Of a DNA stretch of 64,000 bases, positions 3,884 through 17,272 are shown piece after piece. This DNA comes from Mumia sp. Pv4-285. GTDB taxonomy: Bacteria > Actinomycetota > Actinomycetes > Propionibacteriales > Nocardioidaceae. Each line of letters starts with the position of its first letter. Within the stretch, counting starts at the first letter, position 1. A program made the position numbers and the translations under genes. Under the pieces are notes generated by a model. It was not told where the DNA came from, ran no database searches, and was given only the letters and a program-made list of their open reading frames with translations. Location: contig NZ_CP162023.1 in NCBI RefSeq assembly GCF_041320275.1, forward strand, positions 434,001-498,000. The letters are read 5' to 3'.

Positions 3884-4777
3884 TCAGACCAGGTCTGCGG
3901 CGAAGCCCTGGAAGGCCGCCTGTGCTTCGAGGTACGTGTGCTTCTCGCCGGCGCGGCTCTCGTCGACGAGCGCCGCGAGCGTGTCGGGGTCGAGCGGTCC
4001 GTCGGGCAGGCGGACCGTGCCGTGCTCGACGGAGTCGGCGACCCGGATGCCTGCGGCGCCGGCGACGACGACCTGGCCGTTCAGGGTCGAACGCGGGTCC
4101 ACGAGGGCGGACGCGACCGGAGCGACCGACTCCGAGGTCATGGACTCGGCGTAGCGCGGATCCATGCCGCCCTCGGTCATCTGCGTGGTCGCGTACGGCA
4201 GGAGGACGTTCGTCAGCACGCCGCGACGCTGGCCCTCGACGGCCACCGTGCGGCCGAGCGCGATGACCGCACCCTTGCTGGCGGCGTACGCGGAGACCGT
4301 CGGCTCGCCGTGCAGGCCCGCGGTCGAGGCGACGAGGAGGATGCGTCCGGACCTCGCCTCGCGCATGACCTTGAGCGCGGCGGAGGCGACGAGCGCGGTG
4401 CCGGTGACGTTGACGCCGAGGACGGTGGCGAGGTTCTCGGGCGTCGTGCTGTGGAACATCTGCGGGCTGCTGATGCCGGCGCTGGTGATGCAGATGTCGA
4501 GGCGTCCCCACTTCTCGAGCGCGGTCTCGACGAGCGTGGTCGCGGTTGCGGGGTCTTCGACGGAGCCGTAGTCGGCGATGGCACTGCCGCCCGCGGCATC
4601 GATCTCGGCGACGACGTAGTCGGCGGCGCTGCGGCCGTCGGCGTCGACCTCACGGTTGCGGTTGTTGACGACGACGGCGGCGCCGCGTGCGGCGAGGTCG
4701 AGCGCGAAAGCGCGGCCGAGGCCCTTGCCGCCGCCGGTGACGATCGCGACCTGGCCTTCCAGCGGGCGCGCGCTCAT
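3884..4777 (-). CDS. Short-chain dehydrogenase/reductase (SDR)
   Basis: 297 residues with a classical Rossmann start, VAIVTGGGKGLGRAF (TGxxxGxG, residues about 10-24). It also has the NNRNRE segment, the SAGIS loop (in place of NNAG), the Ser of LLVASTAG and the YAASK pair (catalytic Tyr and Lys). The fold resembles the hydroxyacyl-CoA dehydrogenase part of peroxisomal multifunctional enzyme type 2, which fits a beta-oxidation-like role. A tail of about 60 residues after the SDR core is longer than in minimal SDRs. The ATG overlaps the thiolase stop (ATGA), indicating coupled expression. Confidence 0.87.
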   Translation of the reverse strand: MSARPLEGQVAIVTGGGKGLGRAFALDLAARGAAVVVNNRNREVDADGRSAADYVVAEIDAAGGSAIADYGSVEDPATATTLVETALEKWGRLDICITSAGISSPQMFHSTTPENLATVLGVNVTGTALVASAALKVMREARSGRILLVASTAGLHGEPTVSAYAASKGAVIALGRTVAVEGQRRGVLTNVLLPYATTQMTEGGMDPRYAESMTSESVAPVASALVDPRSTLNGQVVVAGAAGIRVADSVEHGTVRLPDGPLDPDTLAALVDESRAGEKHTYLEAQAAFQGFAADLV

Positions 4778-5988
4778 GCGTTGACCAGCCTCTCGACCAG
4801 GACCGCCACGCCGAGGCCGGCCGCGCCGCTGACCGCGGCGACGCCGTACCGGCCCTCGCGGCGTTCGAGCTCCTCGACGCAGCTGCCCACGAGGATCGCG
4901 CCCGTCGCGCCGAACGCGTGGCCCATCGCCATCGTTCCTCCGTTGGGGTTCATCCGGTCGGGGCCGGCGTCGAGGTCGCGGCGGAACCGCAGGCACAGGG
5001 CGGAGAAGGCCTCGGCGAACTCGAACACGTCGATGTCGGACGGGCGCAGGCCTGCGCGGGCGATGACCGTCTCGACGGCCGTCTGCCCTGCCGTGAGCAT
5101 GAGCACGGGGTTGACCGAGGTCGAGGCGGCGCCGATCACGCGGGCCCGCGGCCGCAGACCCGTACGCTCCGCGGCGGCGTGGTCACCGATCAGCAGGAGC
5201 GCTGCGGCGTCGGCCATCGCCGGGGACGTACCGACGGTGTGCAGGTGGTCGATCGCGTCCACGACGGGGTACGCGCCGAGGGCGATCGCGTCCTGCCCCT
5301 GGGCACCGAGCTCGGCGAAGGCCGGCGGCAGCTCCGCGAGGCCCTCCAGCGTCGTGCCGGGGCGTACGAGCTCGTCGTGGTCGAGACCAGGCGCGGACTC
5401 GGTCGGGAGCACCGGGACGATCGAGCCCGAGAAGACTCCGGCGGCGTGCGCGGCGGCGGCCTTCTGCTGCGTCTCGAGGCCGTACGCGTCGAGCTCGGCG
5501 CGGGTGAAGCCCTCGATCGTCGCGTTGAGGTCGGCGGCGACACCCATGTGGACCGAGCCGATCCGCTTGATGGTGGCCGGGTCGCTCCACAGCGGGCCGC
5601 GGTCCACGAACATGGGGACGCGAGAGACGCTCTCGACCCCGCCGGCCACGGCCAGCCCCAGGTCGCCGGCGCGGACCCGTGCGGCCGTCTGCCCGACGGC
5701 GTCGACGCCCGAGGCGCAGAAGCGGTTGATCGTCGCACCGGGGACGTCGTCGCCCCAGCCGGCGAGGAGGGCGGCGGTGCGCGCGATGTTCGATCCCTGC
5801 TCGTCGACCTGCGAGGCGCAGCCGAGGGTCACGTCGTCGACGCCCGCGGGGTCGATCCCGGTCCGCTCGACGAGCGCGTTCTGGAGGTGGACGACGAGGT
5901 CGGTCGGGCTCTGCGAGTGCAGCGACCCCTTCGGGGACGCCTTGCCGCGGGGCGTGCGGACGTAGTCCAGGACGAGTGCCTCGGCCAT
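4774..5988 (-). CDS. Thiolase-family protein (acetyl-CoA acetyltransferase type) with non-canonical C-terminal active site
   Basis: 404 residues of thiolase fold. The acyl-accepting Cys is present at C91 (INRFCASG), and the active His is in GHAFGATG (H357). Two usual residues differ. The NEAF motif reads FAEAF, so Asn is Ala near residue 325. The final CxGGGxG motif reads VSGAAGLG, so the base Cys is Ser at about 387. Thiolases cleave 3-ketoacyl-CoA with CoA or run the reverse condensation; loss of the second Cys usually weakens or changes this. It is the first gene of the leftward operon, with AAGGAG 6 nt before the ATG. The shared operator-like element lies 48-85 nt upstream. Confidence 0.85.
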   Translation of the reverse strand: MAEALVLDYVRTPRGKASPKGSLHSQSPTDLVVHLQNALVERTGIDPAGVDDVTLGCASQVDEQGSNIARTAALLAGWGDDVPGATINRFCASGVDAVGQTAARVRAGDLGLAVAGGVESVSRVPMFVDRGPLWSDPATIKRIGSVHMGVAADLNATIEGFTRAELDAYGLETQQKAAAAHAAGVFSGSIVPVLPTESAPGLDHDELVRPGTTLEGLAELPPAFAELGAQGQDAIALGAYPVVDAIDHLHTVGTSPAMADAAALLLIGDHAAAERTGLRPRARVIGAASTSVNPVLMLTAGQTAVETVIARAGLRPSDIDVFEFAEAFSALCLRFRRDLDAGPDRMNPNGGTMAMGHAFGATGAILVGSCVEELERREGRYGVAAVSGAAGLGVAVLVERLVNA

Positions 5989-6035
5989 CGGGGCTCCTTG
6001 GTCGGTGTGTGGCGCAACGATATGTGTGATCTACG

Positions 6036-6073
6036 GCGCTTCAACTGGTGGATTCACTCCGTTAGTTGTAGTA
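6036..6073. promoter_or_regulatory. Shared operator-like element, copy A
   Basis: A 38-bp element beginning GCGCTTC and ending CTCCGTTAGTTGTAGTA. It aligns without gaps to 16370-16407 with 30 of 38 identical positions. It lies in the gap between divergent thiolase genes. It is not a clean palindrome. On the minus strand a possible promoter for the leftward operon (TTGAAG, 16 bp, TATCGT) overlaps its left end. Confidence 0.6.
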
Positions 6074-6143
6074 CGGTTGGACAGCAGTTGGCAACCCGGC
6101 GCCGGTGCGCGCCGTGCAGGAGACTCGAGAGATGGAGCGACGG

Positions 6144-7370
6144 ATGAGCGACAAGAACATCTGGGTCCTCGGTGGCTACCAGAGCGACTTCGCCCGCAAC
6201 CTGACGCGCGAGGGCCTCGACTTCGCCGACCTGACGCGAGAGGTCGTCGACGGCACGCTGACGGCCGCATCGGTCGACGGTCACGCGATCGAGGTCGTGC
6301 ACGTCGGCAACGCGTTCGGGCAGCTCTTCTCCCACCAGGGCCAGCTCGGCGCGATGCCGGCGACCGTCCGCGAGGAGCTCTGGGGCCTCCCGTCCTCGCG
6401 CCACGAGGCCGCGTGTGCCTCCGGCAGCATCGCCGTCCTCTCCGCGATGGCCGACCTGCGGTCCGGCTCGTACGACTCAGCGCTGGTGGTCGGCGTCGAG
6501 CTCGAGAAGACCGTGTCCGGCGACGACGCCGCCCGCAACCTGGGTGCTGCGGCGTGGGTCGGGCACGAGGGCGAGGAGGCCACCTTCATGTGGCCGTACA
6601 TGTTCGACCAGGTCGCCGACGAGTACGACCGTCGCTACGGCCTCGACGACGCGCACCTGCGGGCGATCTCCCAGCTCAACTTCGCCAACGCCCGCCGCAA
6701 CCCGCTCGCGCAGACCCGCGGCTGGGACGTCCCTGACCTCGCCGCCCGCGGGCACGACGACGCGGTCAACCCCGTGATCGAGGGCCGCGTACGCCGCTTC
6801 GACTGCAGCCAGATCACCGACGGCGGTGCGGGCGTCGTCCTCGTCAACGACGCCTACCTGCGCGCCCACCCCGACGCCCGGCCGATCGCTCGCATCGACG
6901 GCTGGGGGCACCGCACCGTCGGTCTCGGCCTCCAGCGCAAGCTCGAGGTCTCCGCGGACCAGCCGTACGTGATGCCGCACCTGCGGCAGACCGTGCTCGA
7001 CGCGTTCGACCGCGCCCAGGTCACGCTCGACGACCTGGACGGGCTCGAGACGCACGACTGCTTCTCGCCGAGCGAGTACGTCGCGATCGACCACATCGGC
7101 CTCACCGGTCCCGGCGAGTCGTGGAAGGCGATCGAGAACGGCGACATCGCTCCCGGCGGCGTCCTCCCGATCAACCCCAGCGGTGGGCTGATCGGCGGAG
7201 GCCACCCCGTCGGTGCGAGCGGGGTGCGGATGCTGCTCGACGCGTCCAAGCAGGTCAGCGGCACCGCCGGTGACTACCAGGTCGAGGGCGCACGCACGTT
7301 CGGCACGCTCAACTTCGGTGGCAGCACCGCGACCACGGTCAGCCTCGTCGTCGGCGCCCCTCCCGAGTGA
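6144..7370 (+). CDS. Thiolase-like protein (lipid-transfer / acetyl-CoA acetyltransferase family)
   Basis: About 408 residues of the SCP-x/lipid-transfer thiolase branch. A Cys sits in EAACASGSIA (nucleophile position), a His in ETHDCFSPSE, and the C-terminal GGLIGGGHPVGASG holds the second active His. The final part reads TFGTLNFGGST rather than the CxGGGxG of degradative thiolases, as is common in this branch. It may cleave a 3-ketoacyl-CoA of a bulky substrate. Two ATGs compete: 6144 (GGAG 6 nt upstream) and 6132 (AGGAG 9 nt upstream). I use 6144 because MSDKNIWVLGG looks like the family start. It is the first gene of the rightward operon containing the oxygenase. Confidence 0.83.
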   Translation: MSDKNIWVLGGYQSDFARNLTREGLDFADLTREVVDGTLTAASVDGHAIEVVHVGNAFGQLFSHQGQLGAMPATVREELWGLPSSRHEAACASGSIAVLSAMADLRSGSYDSALVVGVELEKTVSGDDAARNLGAAAWVGHEGEEATFMWPYMFDQVADEYDRRYGLDDAHLRAISQLNFANARRNPLAQTRGWDVPDLAARGHDDAVNPVIEGRVRRFDCSQITDGGAGVVLVNDAYLRAHPDARPIARIDGWGHRTVGLGLQRKLEVSADQPYVMPHLRQTVLDAFDRAQVTLDDLDGLETHDCFSPSEYVAIDHIGLTGPGESWKAIENGDIAPGGVLPINPSGGLIGGGHPVGASGVRMLLDASKQVSGTAGDYQVEGARTFGTLNFGGSTATTVSLVVGAPPE

Positions 7371-7432: not shown

Positions 7433-8950
7433 ATGGACATGGAGATCGTCGGCAGGATGCTGTCGACCCTTCCCGAGGACGACGACCACCCCTACCGGAC
7501 CGGTCCGTGGCGTCCGCAGACGAACGAGTGGAAGGCCGACGACCTCGAGGTCGTGGAGGGTGAGATCCCGCGTGATCTCGACGGGATCTACCTGCGCAAC
7601 ACCGAGAACCCGCTCCACCCGTCGCTGAAGAACTACCACCCGTTCGACGGTGACGGCATGATCCACGTCGTCGGGTTCCGCGACGGCACGGCGTTCTACC
7701 GCAACCGCTTCATCCGTACTGACGGGCTCGTCGCGGAGTCCGAGGCGGGCGGACCGCTGTGGGCCGGACTCGCCGAGGCGCCGTCGTCCGCGCCGCGCGA
7801 GGACGGATGGGGTGCACGTCGACGGATGAAGGACGCGTCGAGCACCGACGTCGTGGTCCACCGCGGTACGGCGCTCACCAGCTTCTACCAGTGCGGCGAC
7901 CTCTACCGCGTGGACCCGTTCACCGCCCAGACGCTGGGCAAGGAGAGCTGGAACGGCCACTTCCCGTTCGACTGGGGAGTCTCCGCGCACCCGAAGGTGG
8001 ACGACAAGACCGGCGAGATGCTGTTCTTCAACTACAGCAAAGAGGCGCCGTACATGAACTACGGCGTCGTCGACGAGAACAACGACCTCGTCCACTACAC
8101 CGACATCCCGCTCCCCGGGCCGCGGCTGCCGCACGACATGGCGTACACCGAGAACTACGCGATCCTCAACGACTTCCCGCTCTTCTGGGACCCGGACGCC
8201 CTCAAGAAGGACGCCCACATCGCCCGCTTCCACAAGGACATGCCCTCGCGCTTCGCCGTGATCCCGCGGCGCGGCCAGAGCAAGGACATCATGTGGTTCG
8301 AGGCGGAGGCGACGTACGTCCTGCACTTCGTGAACGCCTACGAGGACGGCGACGAGATCGTGCTCGACGGGTTCTTCCAGGGCGACCCGGAGCCTGCGGA
8401 CAACGGCATGGGCGACAAGTGGCAGCGGGCGTTCCGCTTCCTCGCGCTCGACCGGATGCAGTCCCGCCTGCACCGCTGGCGGCTCAACCTGGTGACCGGC
8501 CTGGTCAAGGAGGAGCAGCTGAGCGACAGCGTGACCGAGTTCGGCATGATGAACGGCTCCTACTACGGCGGAAGCTACCGCTACGCGTACGCCGCGACGG
8601 GCAAGCCGTCCTGGTTCCTGTTCGACGGGCTCGTGAAGCACGACCTGCTCGACGGCACGGAGGAGCGCTACTCCTTCGGCGACGGCGTGTACGGCAGCGA
8701 GACGGCGATGGCGCCACGGGTCGGCAGCACCGGTGAGGACGACGGCTACCTCGTCACCCTCACGACGGACATGAACGCCGACGCCTCGTACTGCGTGATC
8801 TTCGACGCCGCCCGCGTCGGCGACGGTCCGGTGTGCAAGCTCAAGCTCCCTGAGCGGATCTCGAGCGGGACCCACTCGACCTGGGCGCCGGGCGAGGAGC
8901 TGCGTCGCTGGCAGACTGCGGACTCGGCCGCGAGCGCGGTCGGGCTCTAG
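7433..8950 (+). CDS. Carotenoid-cleavage-type oxygenase (lignostilbene dioxygenase family)
   Basis: A 505-residue seven-bladed propeller enzyme of the carotenoid oxygenase family. Members use one Fe(II) held by four His to cleave a conjugated or styrene-type C=C bond with O2 into two carbonyl products. All four ligands are visible: H186 (SAHPK), H234 (LPHDMAYT), H298 (YVLHFVNAYE) and H481 (GTHSTWAP). A probable second-shell Glu is in SVTEFGMMN (about 369). The N-terminal GIYLRNTENP and YHPFDGDGMIH motifs are typical. No signal peptide is seen, so it acts in the cytoplasm. AAGGAGAA precedes the ATG. It is the defining enzyme of this gene set; whether its substrate is an apocarotenoid, stilbene, isoeugenol-like or terpenoid compound cannot be read from sequence. 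Confidence 0.9.
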   Translation: MDMEIVGRMLSTLPEDDDHPYRTGPWRPQTNEWKADDLEVVEGEIPRDLDGIYLRNTENPLHPSLKNYHPFDGDGMIHVVGFRDGTAFYRNRFIRTDGLVAESEAGGPLWAGLAEAPSSAPREDGWGARRRMKDASSTDVVVHRGTALTSFYQCGDLYRVDPFTAQTLGKESWNGHFPFDWGVSAHPKVDDKTGEMLFFNYSKEAPYMNYGVVDENNDLVHYTDIPLPGPRLPHDMAYTENYAILNDFPLFWDPDALKKDAHIARFHKDMPSRFAVIPRRGQSKDIMWFEAEATYVLHFVNAYEDGDEIVLDGFFQGDPEPADNGMGDKWQRAFRFLALDRMQSRLHRWRLNLVTGLVKEEQLSDSVTEFGMMNGSYYGGSYRYAYAATGKPSWFLFDGLVKHDLLDGTEERYSFGDGVYGSETAMAPRVGSTGEDDGYLVTLTTDMNADASYCVIFDAARVGDGPVCKLKLPERISSGTHSTWAPGEELRRWQTADSAASAVGL

Positions 8951-8971: not shown

Positions 8972-9919
8972 ATGGACGACCCCACAGCGCCGACTCTCCT
9001 GGAGGCCGGCGAGACGAACGCCGTCGGGCGGATGCTCGGCCTGCTCGGCGACGAGTGGACGCTCCTGGTGCTTCAGCGTGCCCTCACGGGTGTCACCCGT
9101 TACGCCCAGTTCCGGGCCGACCTCCCGATCTCCAACTCCGTTCTCACAGCACGGCTGCAGCTGCTCACCGACGAGCAGCTGCTGGAGCGGAACGTCTACC
9201 AGACCAACCCGCTCCGCGCCGAGTACCTGGTGACGGCCCGCGGCCGGTCGCTGTGGCCGGTGATGCTGTCGATCTGGGAGTGGGAGCGCCACTGGGTGGC
9301 CGAGCGCCCGGAGGACCTACCGGTCATGCACCACGACGTGTGCGGGCGCGACTTCGCTCCGGTGCTGTCGTGCCGCGCGTGCGGCAAGCCCGCGGCGGTC
9401 CGCGACATCGGGGCCGAGTGGGGCCCGAGCGGGACGTGGAAGCGGTCCGTCCCGGAGGGTGCGCGTCGCCGTCGCTCCGAGTCGGACTCGAGCCGGTCCC
9501 AGGCGGGGCTCTTCCCGGAGACGATGACGATCTTCGGCAACCGCTGGGCGTCCGCGCTCATGGGCGCGGCGTTCCGCGGCATCACCCGGTTCAGCGACTT
9601 CGAGTCCGCGCTCGGCGCCCCTCCGACCCTGGTGGCCGACCGCCTCAAGGCCTTCTGCGCGCTGGGTGTGCTCGAGGCGACGCAGAACGCCAAGCGGCCC
9701 GACTGGGCCGAGTACCACCTGACCGAGAAGGGGCGTGCCTTCTTCCCGGTCGTCGCCGCGTCTCTCCAGTGGGCCGACCACTGGTTCAAGGCGCCCGAGG
9801 GTCCTGCCCTCGTCCTCAGCCACCTGCCGTGCGGAGCCGAGTTCGTCGCCACGTTCACGTGCGACCAGTGCAACGCCCCGCTCGCCGGTCACGACATCAG
9901 CATCATCCCCGCCTCCTGA
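8972..9919 (+). CDS. Fused double HxlR-type regulator with two Cys-rich tails
   Basis: About 315 residues made of two winged-helix HxlR domains in tandem (about 10-110 and 185-280). Each ends in a Cys-containing tail: H-x-x-V-C-G-R-D-F then CRACG in the first, and H-L-P-C-G-A-E-F then CDQC in the second. HxlR proteins normally act as homodimers of about 110 residues, so this chain is a covalent pseudo-dimer. The tails (C...CxxC with a nearby His) could bind zinc or sense redox state. ATG 8972 has GAGGTG just upstream. It lies inside the oxygenase operon, 21 nt after the oxygenase and 34 nt before a CoA ligase, so it is the best local candidate to control the regulon. Confidence 0.85.
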   Translation: MDDPTAPTLLEAGETNAVGRMLGLLGDEWTLLVLQRALTGVTRYAQFRADLPISNSVLTARLQLLTDEQLLERNVYQTNPLRAEYLVTARGRSLWPVMLSIWEWERHWVAERPEDLPVMHHDVCGRDFAPVLSCRACGKPAAVRDIGAEWGPSGTWKRSVPEGARRRRSESDSSRSQAGLFPETMTIFGNRWASALMGAAFRGITRFSDFESALGAPPTLVADRLKAFCALGVLEATQNAKRPDWAEYHLTEKGRAFFPVVAASLQWADHWFKAPEGPALVLSHLPCGAEFVATFTCDQCNAPLAGHDISIIPAS

Positions 9920-9953: not shown

Positions 9954-11513
9954 ATGACCGAGCACGCCACTCTCGCGGACATCGTCCGTACGACGGCCAA
10001 ACAGACTCCCGATGCACCGGCGATCGTCGGCGAGGGACGCTCCGTGACCCACGGCGAGCTCGCGGCCCGCTCCGACGCGTTGGGCTCGGGGCTCGTCTCG
10101 CTCGGCCTCGAGGTCGGAGACCGGGTGGCGTACCTCGCGCGCAACGCCACCGAGTACTGGGAGCTGTTCTTCGCTGCCGCCAAGGCGGGTCTGGTCATCG
10201 TGCCGCTCAACTTCCGGCTCTCCGCGGACGAGGTCTCCTGGATCCTCGGAGACGCCGAACCCGCCGCGGTCCTGGTCGAGGACCATCTCGCGCACCTGGT
10301 CCCCCGCGACTTCGCCGGGCCGCGCCTGGTGTTCTCGCAGGACGGCGACCCGCAGGTGCCGGACGGATGGCAGGGGTACGAGGCGTGGCTGGCGACGCTG
10401 CCCGTGGTCGACCCGCACCGCGAGGTCTCGGGCGACGCGCTGTTCTCGCTGATGTACTCGTCGGGCACGACCGGCCGACCCAAGGGCGTGACGACCACGG
10501 TCGCGGGGTTCCTGTGGGCCGTCGAGGCGTTCGGTGCGCAGTTCGACGTGTCGCCGGCGTCGGTGAGCCTCGTCCCGACGCCGTACTACCACATCGCCGC
10601 CGGCGGCTGGTCTCTCATCGCGCTGGCCGCGGGCGGTCGCATCGTGCAGTTCACCGAGGTCACGCCGCAGAACATGCTCGGGCTGCTGGTGGGCCACCGA
10701 GCCACCCACGTGATCATGGTCCCGACCGTGATGCAGCTGTTCATCACGAGCCCGGAGGCGTCGAAGGCCGACTACTCCAGCGTCGAGTGGGTGGTCTACG
10801 GCGGCTCGCCGATCTCCGAGACGGTGATGGTCGGTGCCAAGAGGGTCTTCGGGGCGGAGCTCGCTCAGAGCTACGGCCTCACGGAGACGATCGGTGTCAC
10901 GACCATCCTCGGAGCGGGCGACCACGTCGTGGGCGCCACCAAGCTCCGCTCGGCCGGCCGCGCCGTGCCGGGCGTCGAGGTCGCGATCTTCGATCCCGAG
11001 ACCGGCGAGGAGTGCCCGACCGGTGAGGTCGGCGAGGTCGTCACGCGCGGCCCCGGCGTCACCAAGGCGTACTGGCGACGCCCCGACGAGACGGCTGCTT
11101 CGTACTGGCCGGGCGGGTGGTTCCGGACCGGCGACGCGGGCTACGTCGACGACGAGGGATACGTCTTCCTCAAGGACCGCATCAAGGACCTGCTGATGTC
11201 CGGCGGCGAGAACATCTACCCGGCCGAGGTCGAGAACGCGATCATGACGCACCCCGACGTCCAGGAGGTCGCGGTCATCGGCATCCCGTCGGAGAAGTGG
11301 GGCGAGACGCCGCACGCGGTGGTCGTCGCGAAGCCCGGCCAGGAGATCGACGGCGACCAGCTGATCGCGCACACGCGCGAGCGCCTGGCGCACTACAAGT
11401 GTCCGACCTCCGTCACGGTGGTCGACGCCCTCCCGCGCAACCCGTCCGGGAAGGTACTCAAGCGCGAGCTCCGCGCCCCGTGGTGGGCCGGGCACGAGAG
11501 GAGCATCGGATGA
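9954..11513 (+). CDS. Acyl-CoA synthetase (adenylate-forming ligase 1)
   Basis: 519 residues, of the expected length for a fatty/aromatic acyl-CoA ligase that makes acyl-AMP from acid and ATP and then the CoA thioester. Motifs in order: YSSGTTGRPKG (phosphate loop), VPTPYYHIAAGG, SYGLTET, TGDAGYVDDEGYVFLKDR (hinge region), SGGENIYPAEVE and the C-terminal PRNPSGKVLK with the catalytic Lys. No membrane segment. It sits 34 nt after the HxlR regulator and overlaps the VOC gene start by 4 nt. Substrate is unknown; it is one of four ligases in the gene set. Confidence 0.9.
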   Translation: MTEHATLADIVRTTAKQTPDAPAIVGEGRSVTHGELAARSDALGSGLVSLGLEVGDRVAYLARNATEYWELFFAAAKAGLVIVPLNFRLSADEVSWILGDAEPAAVLVEDHLAHLVPRDFAGPRLVFSQDGDPQVPDGWQGYEAWLATLPVVDPHREVSGDALFSLMYSSGTTGRPKGVTTTVAGFLWAVEAFGAQFDVSPASVSLVPTPYYHIAAGGWSLIALAAGGRIVQFTEVTPQNMLGLLVGHRATHVIMVPTVMQLFITSPEASKADYSSVEWVVYGGSPISETVMVGAKRVFGAELAQSYGLTETIGVTTILGAGDHVVGATKLRSAGRAVPGVEVAIFDPETGEECPTGEVGEVVTRGPGVTKAYWRRPDETAASYWPGGWFRTGDAGYVDDEGYVFLKDRIKDLLMSGGENIYPAEVENAIMTHPDVQEVAVIGIPSEKWGETPHAVVVAKPGQEIDGDQLIAHTRERLAHYKCPTSVTVVDALPRNPSGKVLKRELRAPWWAGHERSIG

Positions 11514-12238
11514 CGACCGAGCAGGCAGGCTGGGCGATCCTTCGCCAGACCGTGATCGGGTCGGCGGAGATCGAGACCACGAGCAAGGAGCTGCGCGAGA
11601 CGTTCGGCCTCTCGGAGGGTTTCGCGGACCCGATCCTCGAGGAGGTCGGCCTCGCGGACGAGACGATCCGCGTCGGTCCGCAGACGCACCTCGAGGTCGT
11701 GGGTGCGCTGCGCGACGACGTCTCGATCGCGCAGTGGATCGCGAAGGGCGGCGGGGGCGGCGGCTACGCGCTCTCGATCCAGGTGCCCGATGCGGCCGCG
11801 CTGGTTGCTGCCGCGCAGGCCCAGGGCGTACGGACCGTCGCGGACCAGGAGGTCTACGGCCACCGGATCGTCCAGCTGCACCCCAAGGACATGGGTCTCC
11901 TCGTCGAGCTCGACGAGATCGTCGACCCGGGGGTGTGGTTCTGGGACGACATCGTCACGACGACGCCGAGCGACCCGGTGATCGACGACGTGGTGGCGGT
12001 CGAGGTGGCATCCGCCGACCCCGCCGCGCAGGCCGCGCGCTGGAGCGCCGTCTTCGGCATCGCGGTGGACGACGTCGACGGTGTCCCGCAGATCTCGCTC
12101 GGGCACCGCGTGGTGCGGTTCGTGCGAGGCGACCGGCCGATGCTCACCGCGATCGACGTGGCGCTGACGCCGGCGCACACCGAGCGTGCGGGAGAGGTCG
12201 AGATCTCCGGAGTGCGCTTCCGCCTGCTCGCCGACTGA
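11510..12238 (+). CDS. VOC-fold (glyoxalase-like) protein
   Basis: 242 residues that look like a duplicated vicinal-oxygen-chelate fold. The first half contains THLEVVGAL and ALSIQVPDA strands with the Gly run GGGGGG between them. The second half has VVAVEVASADPAAQAARW and ISLGHRVVRFV. VOC proteins include glyoxalases, extradiol dioxygenases and CoA-ester epimerases such as methylmalonyl-CoA epimerase. The His and Glu ligands are not clear enough to choose among these. ATG overlaps the ligase stop (ATGA), so it is translationally coupled to the ligase. A long hairpin follows the stop codon. Confidence 0.72.
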   Translation: MTTEQAGWAILRQTVIGSAEIETTSKELRETFGLSEGFADPILEEVGLADETIRVGPQTHLEVVGALRDDVSIAQWIAKGGGGGGYALSIQVPDAAALVAAAQAQGVRTVADQEVYGHRIVQLHPKDMGLLVELDEIVDPGVWFWDDIVTTTPSDPVIDDVVAVEVASADPAAQAARWSAVFGIAVDDVDGVPQISLGHRVVRFVRGDRPMLTAIDVALTPAHTERAGEVEISGVRFRLLAD

Positions 12239-12245
12239 CCGTCCC

Positions 12246-12314
12246 GTCCCCGATTTGGCGAGTTCGACAAGGAATGCGGTGCCGATTCCTTGTCCAACTC
12301 ACCAAATCGGGGAC
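12246..12314. repeat. Long near-perfect inverted repeat between convergent operons
   Basis: Two 30-nt arms (12246-12275 and 12285-12314) match as inverted copies with only two mismatches, around a 9-nt loop. The left arm begins GTCCCCGATTTGGCGAGTTC. It fills the gap between two convergent operons, so it can act as a terminator in both directions. The arms are less GC-rich than their surroundings, so it may instead be a dispersed repeat that landed here. Confidence 0.75.
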
Positions 12315-12320
12315 GAGGCG

Positions 12321-16369: not shown

Positions 16370-16407
16370 GCGCTTCGGTTGACGGACTCACTCCGTTTGC
16401 TGTAGTA
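16370..16407. promoter_or_regulatory. Shared operator-like element, copy B
   Basis: The second copy of the element at 6036-6073. It begins GCGCTTC and ends CTCCGTTTGCTGTAGTA. A possible rightward promoter overlaps it: TTGACG (16379-16384), 18 bp, TAGTAA (16403-16408). The -35 is not kept in copy A while the CTCCGTT and TGTAGTA parts are, so conservation is better explained by a regulator site than by core promoter alone. Confidence 0.6.
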
Positions 16408-16456
16408 ATCTCTATCACACTGTTAATTGAAGTGTCACGAGTGGAAGGCCAGCGGA

Positions 16457-17272
16457 GTGAGCCCAGAAACACCCCAGCAACCCGGTCGGGCTGCCGCGGC
16501 TCCCGACGGCGCGTTGCTGACGCTGCGCGACGTCACGATCGGGTTCGGAGGCGTGACCGCCCTCGATGCCGTCGGGTTCGACGTCCAGCCAGGGCAGATC
16601 CTCGGACTGATCGGTCCGAACGGCGCCGGCAAGACGACGCTCTTCAACTGCATCACCCGCATCTACCAGCCCGACTCCGGAGAGATCCGTTGGCAGGGCA
16701 AGGACCTGCTCCGCGTGCCGGCCCACCACCTGCCCCGTCGCGGGATCGCCCGGACGTTCCAGAACCTCGCGCTCTTCGGCGGCATGTCGGTCTTCGACAA
16801 CACGATGGCCGGAGGCACCTCGCAGGCCCGCATCGGTGCCACGAGCGGACTCGTCGGCTGGCCGCCCGCCCGCTCTCGGACCAAGAAGCTCCGCGCCCAG
16901 GCGTGGGAGCTGCTCGAGCGGCTCGATCTCGTCGAGCTCGCCGACGCGCCGGCGGCGGGGCTGCCGTTCGGCACGCTGAAGCGCGTCGAGCTCGCCCGCG
17001 CGCTGATGGCCGACCCCAAGCTGCTCCTCCTCGACGAGCCGGCAGGCGGCCTGACCCACAGCGAGGTCAAGGCGCTCGGTGAGCTCATCGTGTCGCTGCG
17101 CGACGACTTCGGCTTCGCCGCTCTCCTCGTCGAGCACCACATGGGCCTGGTCCTCGGCATCAGCGACCACGTCGTCGCCCTCGACTTCGGGCACAAGATC
17201 TTCGAAGGCAGCCCCGAGCAGGTCAAGCACGACCCCGCCGTCATCGCGGCCTACCTCGGGAGGGCGGCATGA
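16457..17272 (+). CDS. Branched-chain-type ABC importer ATPase (LivG-like)
   Basis: About 271 residues. Walker A is GPNGAGKTT, the Q loop lies in RTFQNLALF, the signature is a shortened LPFGTLKRVELARAL (as usual for LivG proteins) and Walker B is LLLLDEPAGG. It energises import across the membrane with the LivF-like partner. GTG 16457 is used; an in-frame TTG at 16427 would add ten residues with no family similarity. First of five importer genes, and its ATG/GTG-coupled neighbours suggest one transcript from the region at 16370-16456. Such importers carry amino acids but in catabolic clusters often carry aromatic or other carboxylates. Confidence 0.9.
   Translation: MSPETPQQPGRAAAAPDGALLTLRDVTIGFGGVTALDAVGFDVQPGQILGLIGPNGAGKTTLFNCITRIYQPDSGEIRWQGKDLLRVPAHHLPRRGIARTFQNLALFGGMSVFDNTMAGGTSQARIGATSGLVGWPPARSRTKKLRAQAWELLERLDLVELADAPAAGLPFGTLKRVELARALMADPKLLLLDEPAGGLTHSEVKALGELIVSLRDDFGFAALLVEHHMGLVLGISDHVVALDFGHKIFEGSPEQVKHDPAVIAAYLGRAA

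Follow-up and report, generated by a model that had tools for sequence, protein, structure and literature searches.

The window examined here is the whole 64,000-nucleotide stretch of Mumia sp. Pv4-285 DNA (contig NZ_CP162023.1, positions 434,001 to 498,000), and the features of interest within it are collected in Table 1. The regulator gene lies third in a run that comprises a thiolase, a carotenoid oxygenase, the HxlR-type regulator itself, a CoA ligase, and a VOC protein, and a divergent run with a second thiolase starts across a 158-bp gap (5989-6146). The oxygenase scores 225 bits against the apocarotenoid model (cut-off 675) and 216 bits against the lignostilbene model (cut-off 800), and two of its relatives likewise fall far below both cut-offs. 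A phosphotriesterase-family hydrolase gene (461-1459) is found near the left end of the cluster. The convergent gap between the VOC and CoA-ligase genes is filled by a 36-nt inverted repeat (12240-12320; 89% complementary, with 9 nt between the arms), perhaps a two-way terminator, in a stretch that holds no T run.

Table 1. Features of the regulator's cluster, in window coordinates.
Feature	Position	Strand	Remark
SDR-type dehydrogenase, divergent operon	3884..4780	-	
Acetyl-CoA acyltransferase (thiolase), start of divergent operon	4774..5988	-	
Predicted operator 1, ACTCCGTTAGTTGTAGTA	6056..6073	+	divergent promoter region between two thiolase genes
Thiolase (Thiolase_C_1 domain) that opens the regulator's operon	6147..7370	+	
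Carotenoid oxygenase (RPE65 family), directly upstream of the regulator	7433..8950	+	
Tandem HxlR regulator gene	8972..9919	+	315 aa and stop; full-length relatives known
HxlR winged-helix domain 1	9041..9304	+	PF01638, 73.5 bits
Tail 1 (about aa 118-150), ligand set H121, C124, C134, C137	9323..9421	+	pLDDT 97-98, blocks 121-140
Inter-half linker (aa 161-180)	9452..9511	+	pLDDT 57-58
HxlR winged-helix domain 2	9533..9790	+	PF01638, 48.6 bits
Tail 2 (about aa 280-312), ligand set H284, C287, C297, C300	9809..9907	+	pLDDT 98, blocks 281-300
AMP-forming acyl-CoA ligase, directly downstream of the regulator	9954..11513	+	
VOC/glyoxalase-like protein, operon end	11510..12238	+	Glyoxalase_4 at 26.4 bits, slightly below its cut-off of 27
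Predicted operator 2, 2 mismatches	16390..16407	+	between divergent SnoaL-like and ABC-transporter genes
Weak additional match to the element at 4 mismatches, 27 bp away from predicted operator 2	16417..16434	+	also in G001 (L038)
ATP-binding subunit of a branched-chain-type ABC transporter, next gene past predicted operator 2	16427..17272	+	

HxlR proteins are usually single-domain dimers. The regulator departs from this usual form of one domain per chain and a homodimer, which the Pfam model does not itself require: its frame, read from ATG to TGA, contains two HxlR domains and no other Pfam match (117.1 bits for the whole protein), with each half above the curated PF01638 cut-off of 20.8 bits, and this is the sole pair in one frame among 11 HxlR matches in the 4.65-Mb genome. 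Mis-joined genes or a frameshift were ruled out, as a fused frame of 294 to 350 aa recurs at no fewer than 62 further intact loci on genome contigs. Each domain is followed by the pattern HxxCGx(8)CxxC, namely H121-x2-C124-G-x8-C134-x2-C137 after the first and H284-x2-C287-G-x8-C297-x2-C300 after the second, and six of the seven cysteines in the chain fall within these tails; the first-pass annotation had thus described the architecture correctly, i.e., two winged-helix domains in one chain, each with a His/Cys...CxxC tail. An arginine is kept in the recognition segment of both halves (R61 in at least 90% of 68 rows, R224 invariant), for which reason both halves look able to bind DNA.

A single chain modelled with AlphaFold2 from a 68-row alignment is predicted with a mean pLDDT of 92.1 and a pTM of 0.90, and confidence is highest in the ligand-bearing blocks of the tails and low in the linker (Table 1). 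The best long structural match is PA1607 of Pseudomonas aeruginosa (2f2e), on whose residues 6-146 model residues 173-314 superimpose (140 residues, rmsd 2.6, Z 11.8), so that, in the model, the fold continues through the tail as the C-terminal subdomain of PA1607-type HxlR proteins does. PA1607 and PA1374 (4gcv) of the same species share with the fused protein a winged helix and this C-terminal subdomain, and both are recovered by profile (E 1.1e-35 and 7.1e-33, respectively); unlike it, they are single-domain proteins whose tails contain none of the His or Cys ligands. The structures of HypR, HxlR, and YodB match the domain core of the model. Bacillus subtilis HxlR and the DUF24 thiol sensors YodB, HypR, and QsrR belong to the same domain family as the fused protein but have chains of 107-131 residues without the tail. 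Fused two-domain SarA-type regulators, SarS and SarU of Staphylococcus aureus, carry two winged helices per chain and thereby form a built-in dimer; the fused HxlR protein would work in the same way, although it is of a different family. Pfam assigns the fused chain to HxlR only, and its Foldseek likeness to SarS (1p4x) is weak (rank 32, 278 alignment columns, TM 0.22-0.27, E 6.7e-3).

Relatives were sought in several collections. A full-length tandem protein (E 1e-20 or better) is present in four of the 98 genomes around and including the window's own (G000, G001, G004, and G041), with identities to the window's protein of 94% in G001, 80% in G004, and 62, 48, and 37% for the three copies in G041. 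Among the best 40 of 476 plasmid records, full-length relatives at 28-33% identity occur in Cupriavidus, Bradyrhizobium, and Rhizobium; among the best 80 loci of the genome-contig scan, 64 matched with both halves and 16 were single-domain. All relatives with a named phylum belong to Actinomycetota or Pseudomonadota. The three paralogues of G041 lie within 28 kb of each other (L035-L036, G041:C1:547047-574738), amid thiolase, oxygenase, and CoA-ligase genes, and similar trios occur in G365 and G441.

For a phylogeny of the halves, both halves of 72 tandem proteins were aligned with 37 single-domain relatives over 136 columns; two short-framed loci (L076 and L102) entered the neighbour counts but neither the 72-row alignment nor the one used for structure prediction, and four single-domain entries were set aside for an internal stop (L018, L022, and L026) or a bad start (L109). 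In the resulting tree, 59 tandem proteins have their N halves gathered on one branch (SH-aLRT 98) and their C halves on a second (99) with identical membership, which indicates that a single old fusion gave rise to 59 of the 72 proteins compared. A recent duplication was ruled out by this separation of the halves; together with the compact AlphaFold2 model, it agrees with the proposal of a built-in pseudo-heterodimer. Neither of the main branches includes the ten rhizobial-type proteins or L059, L092, and L098; the deep order of the tree is unsure, given the few columns and some long branches. Two or more independent fusions were considered and dropped, because trees constrained to keep the C halves of all 72 proteins together, or the N halves, were not rejected (p-AU 0.78 and 0.51, respectively) and score slightly above the free tree; a single fusion for all 72 proteins is, as far as the tree goes, possible. 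The ten rhizobial-type proteins (L033 at 7899-8942, L034, L063, L074, L077, L079-L081, L085, and L095, from Bradyrhizobium, Rhizobium, and their kin) constitute a second tandem group; L033 and L034 reside on plasmids typed as conjugative, and many of the group adjoin genes for 4-hydroxyphenylacetate 3-hydroxylase-like, xanthine dehydrogenase, lactonase, and ABC transporter proteins.

The alignment of the 72 tandem proteins bears directly on the tails. H121, C124, C134, and C137 are conserved in 68, 67, 68, and 68 rows and H284, C287, C297, and C300 in 68, 60, 67, and 68, with the full His-Cys-Cys-Cys set in 67 rows for tail 1 and 59 for tail 2, so that the tails, by their recurrence at these positions in 60 to 68 of the 72 proteins, are judged to lie well beyond chance. 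In a class sample, 26 more tandem genes (one of which, L163, is the same as L036 and already in the alignment) all carry at least one tail, and 21 carry both under the strict pattern. The tail is also present in 32 of the 37 single-domain relatives, four being wholly without it, and is therefore best regarded as an old part of this branch of HxlR proteins; its origin as a product of the fusion was ruled out on the same ground.

The manner in which the ligands are lost is informative. In four Brevundimonas rows (L097, L100, L101, and L103), all eight tail ligands are gone together. C287 alone is lost in eight rows. In seven of these, a His stands one to four residues further on, which is true of 24 of the 60 rows with an intact C287 (Fisher p 0.014, to be taken as a hint, as several of the eight are close kin); the eighth has a Cys one residue earlier, and in tail 1 the single row that lacks C124 but keeps the other ligands also has a nearby His. 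Both the joint loss and the Cys/His pattern agree with a zinc site, and the tails accordingly look more like metal sites than like thiol sensors, as judged by residue conservation; most likely, each tail would hold one structural zinc through His-Cys-Cys-Cys. The suggestion in the first-pass annotation that the tails could hold zinc is thus supported as far as sequence goes, the tail cysteines being conserved among the orthologues. The Brevundimonas loci keep an oxygenase neighbour without the tail ligands and would provide a natural metal-free control.

The first-pass annotation had further proposed that the tails could sense oxidants or aldehydes, the product type of the neighbouring oxygenase. 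The chemistry of the RPE65-type carotenoid oxygenase family should yield aldehydes, and zinc-bound CxxC centres can be redox switches; the conserved tails of the tandem proteins and the oxygenase beside the regulator at 34 of 53 main-clade loci also speak for such a switch acting through the CxxC cysteines. In B. subtilis HxlR, formaldehyde reportedly bridges Cys11 and Lys13, Cys11 is the conserved residue reported as an electrophile or oxidant sensor in other family members, and the reactive Cys stands 13 residues before a conserved Trp (PMC7835342). Counted from that Trp, the fused protein has N16 and V18 in the first half and G179 and F181 in the second, and no Cys occurs at -17 to -8 before W29 or W192 in the 315-aa protein; neither the formaldehyde-sensing Cys-Lys pair nor the reactive Cys of the DUF24 proteins of YodB/HypR type is found. 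The N-terminal Cys by which B. subtilis HxlR, YodB, HypR, and QsrR sense electrophiles is missing from both halves, and the known mechanism is therefore closed to the fused protein. Across the 59 main-clade rows, a Cys occurs in the N-terminal sensing stretch of the first half in 18 and of the second half in none; in the rhizobial group, the sensing Cys is retained in the first half of nine of the ten proteins. Given also that the tail is common in single-domain relatives, that the oxygenase is found at none of the 16 such loci with long flanks, and that ligands vanish as a set or are lost with a His close by, as metal ligands would, we consider a thiol switch in the tails very unlikely, and this part of the earlier proposal is not upheld, with a small chance left that a zinc-bound CxxC responds to oxidants as well.

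The link to the oxygenase itself is nevertheless real. Neighbours were counted by tblastn (at least 100 bits, with the window's and Cupriavidus enzymes as queries) within at most 8 kb per side, or less at contig ends. At the 53 main-clade loci (two with short frames), the oxygenase was found at 34, as noted above, a nitronate monooxygenase-like protein at 32, a Thiolase_C_1 protein at 29, and an AMP ligase at 33, and one or more of the first three at 48; 19 loci gave no oxygenase within these flanks. The corresponding counts are 0, 0, 0, and 7 at 11 other tandem loci and 0, 0, 0, and 1 at the 16 single-domain loci, so that tailed but unfused HxlR proteins differ from the fusion clade in their surroundings. 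On two Cupriavidus plasmids, an oxygenase, an adenylate-forming enzyme, a thiolase, and an SDR protein surround the regulator, along with a porin, transporters, and an aldehyde dehydrogenase. Gene neighbourhood thus ties the fusion clade to a carotenoid-oxygenase/thiolase/CoA-ligase pathway.

A candidate operator, ACTCyGTTAGTTGTAGTA, emerges from comparison of the promoter gaps of close relatives. The window's genome contains two sites at up to two mismatches (6056 and 16390), both in the cluster, and none for the reversed pattern; 100 shuffles of the window yielded no match at three mismatches. The same site as predicted operator 2 is present in G001, and similar sites at three mismatches are present in G004 and G041. 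With its ACT-N11-AGT form, the element is an imperfect palindrome of 17 bp. AC(T)-N11-AGT is common to fourteen collected sites, which are symmetric on average at 4.0 of 8 pairs, compared with 2.0 in shuffles, a score that is partly circular in that the dyad was first read by eye and some of the sites were chosen by that rule. The element's asymmetry is consistent, since position 4 is C in 11 of the 14 sites and its mirror, position 14, carries T in 11 of them where symmetry would demand G; the left arm accordingly reads ACTC and the right arm, on the other strand, ACTA. Tentatively, and with somewhat less than even confidence, it may be proposed that the diverged halves of the regulator read different half-sites and so recognize an oriented operator, and that the regulator and its undescribed pathway form a cassette shared between Actinomycetota and Pseudomonadota.

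The distribution of the element follows that of the fused gene. Within the 98 related genomes, it occurs in all four with a tandem gene and, at two mismatches, in one of the 94 without (G094, where none of the query genes lies within the 3-kb locus), against a reversed-pattern background of 13 in 98. In 394 genomes of the class, the element (at most one mismatch) occurs in 15 and the reversed pattern in five, and all 15 fall among the 21 genomes with a tandem gene (E 1e-45 or better), at distances of 73 to 2,899 bp from it. Four of the six remaining tandem-gene genomes have the element with two or three mismatches close upstream of a thiolase, and two (G311 and G336) have none at four mismatches in the stretch read. 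All 21 possess the oxygenase (E 1e-150 or better), as do seven more genomes that lack the tandem gene; in these seven, both enzymes of the thiolase-oxygenase pair show 74-80% identity to their counterparts in the window, and the element is absent at four mismatches from the 16-18 kb read. The resulting contrast, presence in 19 of the 21 but in none of the 7 (Fisher p 3e-5), is overstated in its p-value because the genomes are related, many coming from one genus. The seven genomes (L166-L172) are of one genus and, judging from a PPE gene beside the cluster in one of them, are perhaps mycobacteria; the gene after the oxygenase encodes a VOC protein (YycE-like) in five of five tested, the upstream neighbours in three tested are two MFS transporters and one PPE protein, and no replacement regulator was found among these VOC, MFS, and PPE genes.

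The element might instead be a promoter feature of the thiolase-oxygenase operon that has nothing to do with the fused regulator, given that it contains a TAGTA stretch resembling a possible -10 region, that the nearest first matched codon of a neighbouring gene lies 12 to 67 bp away at the 15 class sites, and that a thiolase adjoins 11 of them. We regard this as quite unlikely: the element is missing from the seven genomes where the thiolase-oxygenase pair occurs without the fused gene, a consensus scan of 5950-6200 gave no sigma-70-type promoter (with a consensus not made for actinobacteria), and the gene pairs flanking the class sites are not only thiolase/oxygenase but also oxygenase alone (one), HxlR/SDR (three), and HxlR/thiolase (one), with SnoaL/ABC genes at predicted operator 2. 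As it precedes different genes, the element follows the regulator rather than any one gene. It nonetheless appears to be lineage-specific, because ACT-N11-AGT was found in none of 48 proteobacterial upstream regions (200 bp), a result that also ruled out an operator common to all members. Across 1.08 Mb of proteobacterial tandem and single-domain loci, no element was found at up to three mismatches, and six loci had one at four. Visual comparison of the exact inverted repeats (7-base arms) within 260 bp upstream of 64 tandem loci brought out no common motif, and in counts of gapped words no feature reached as many as 12 of the 48 upstream regions.

In the reading that we consider likely, the fused, zinc-tailed pseudo-dimer binds ACT-N11-AGT and controls its own cluster, with release by a small molecule. 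The gene product would covalently join two HxlR winged-helix proteins of PA1607 type; a small subdomain with one structural zinc would complete each half at its C-terminal end, and the chain would bind the 17-bp element at the cluster's divergent promoters with one half-site per half. Its predicted targets are the thiolase/oxygenase/CoA-ligase operon in which it is itself encoded, the divergent operon with the other thiolase, and the operon of the ABC transporter. The expected trigger for release is not thiol oxidation but a small molecule of the pathway, such as a substrate or CoA thioester, bound at the interface between the halves. Alternatively, two chains could join via both halves into a four-domain regulator on two side-by-side operators, as the weak second copy near predicted operator 2 and the recognition-segment arginine in both halves might allow; such an assembly seems unlikely, in that predicted operator 1 has no second copy nearby at four mismatches, four loci of other genomes carry a single site in 18 kb, and the one-chain model is already compact.

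Control by the one-chain pseudo-dimer would most likely be repression, which is suggested by the closeness of the predicted sites to start codons, and the regulator is probably a repressor of the oxygenase pathway. An activator is the less expected case, though one with some chance of being right: the name-giving member of the family is labelled an activator in its PDB name, and formaldehyde is reported to raise the DNA binding and reporter output of B. subtilis HxlR (PMC7835342), but predicted sites 12 to 67 bp from the first matched codon suit promoter blocking.

The HxlR family is known, as are fused winged-helix dimers elsewhere (e.g., SarS); an open-licence PubMed Central search returned, among the matches listed, no paper on tandem or fused HxlR proteins. 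The fused form is old, spread over two phyla, and linked to one catabolic gene set, and the fusion allows one to ask how a symmetric regulator turns asymmetric. The predicted element offers a concrete operator for electrophoretic mobility shift (EMSA) or reporter assays. Lastly, the regulator marks an undescribed oxygenase pathway, the inducer of which may be found with an operator reporter.
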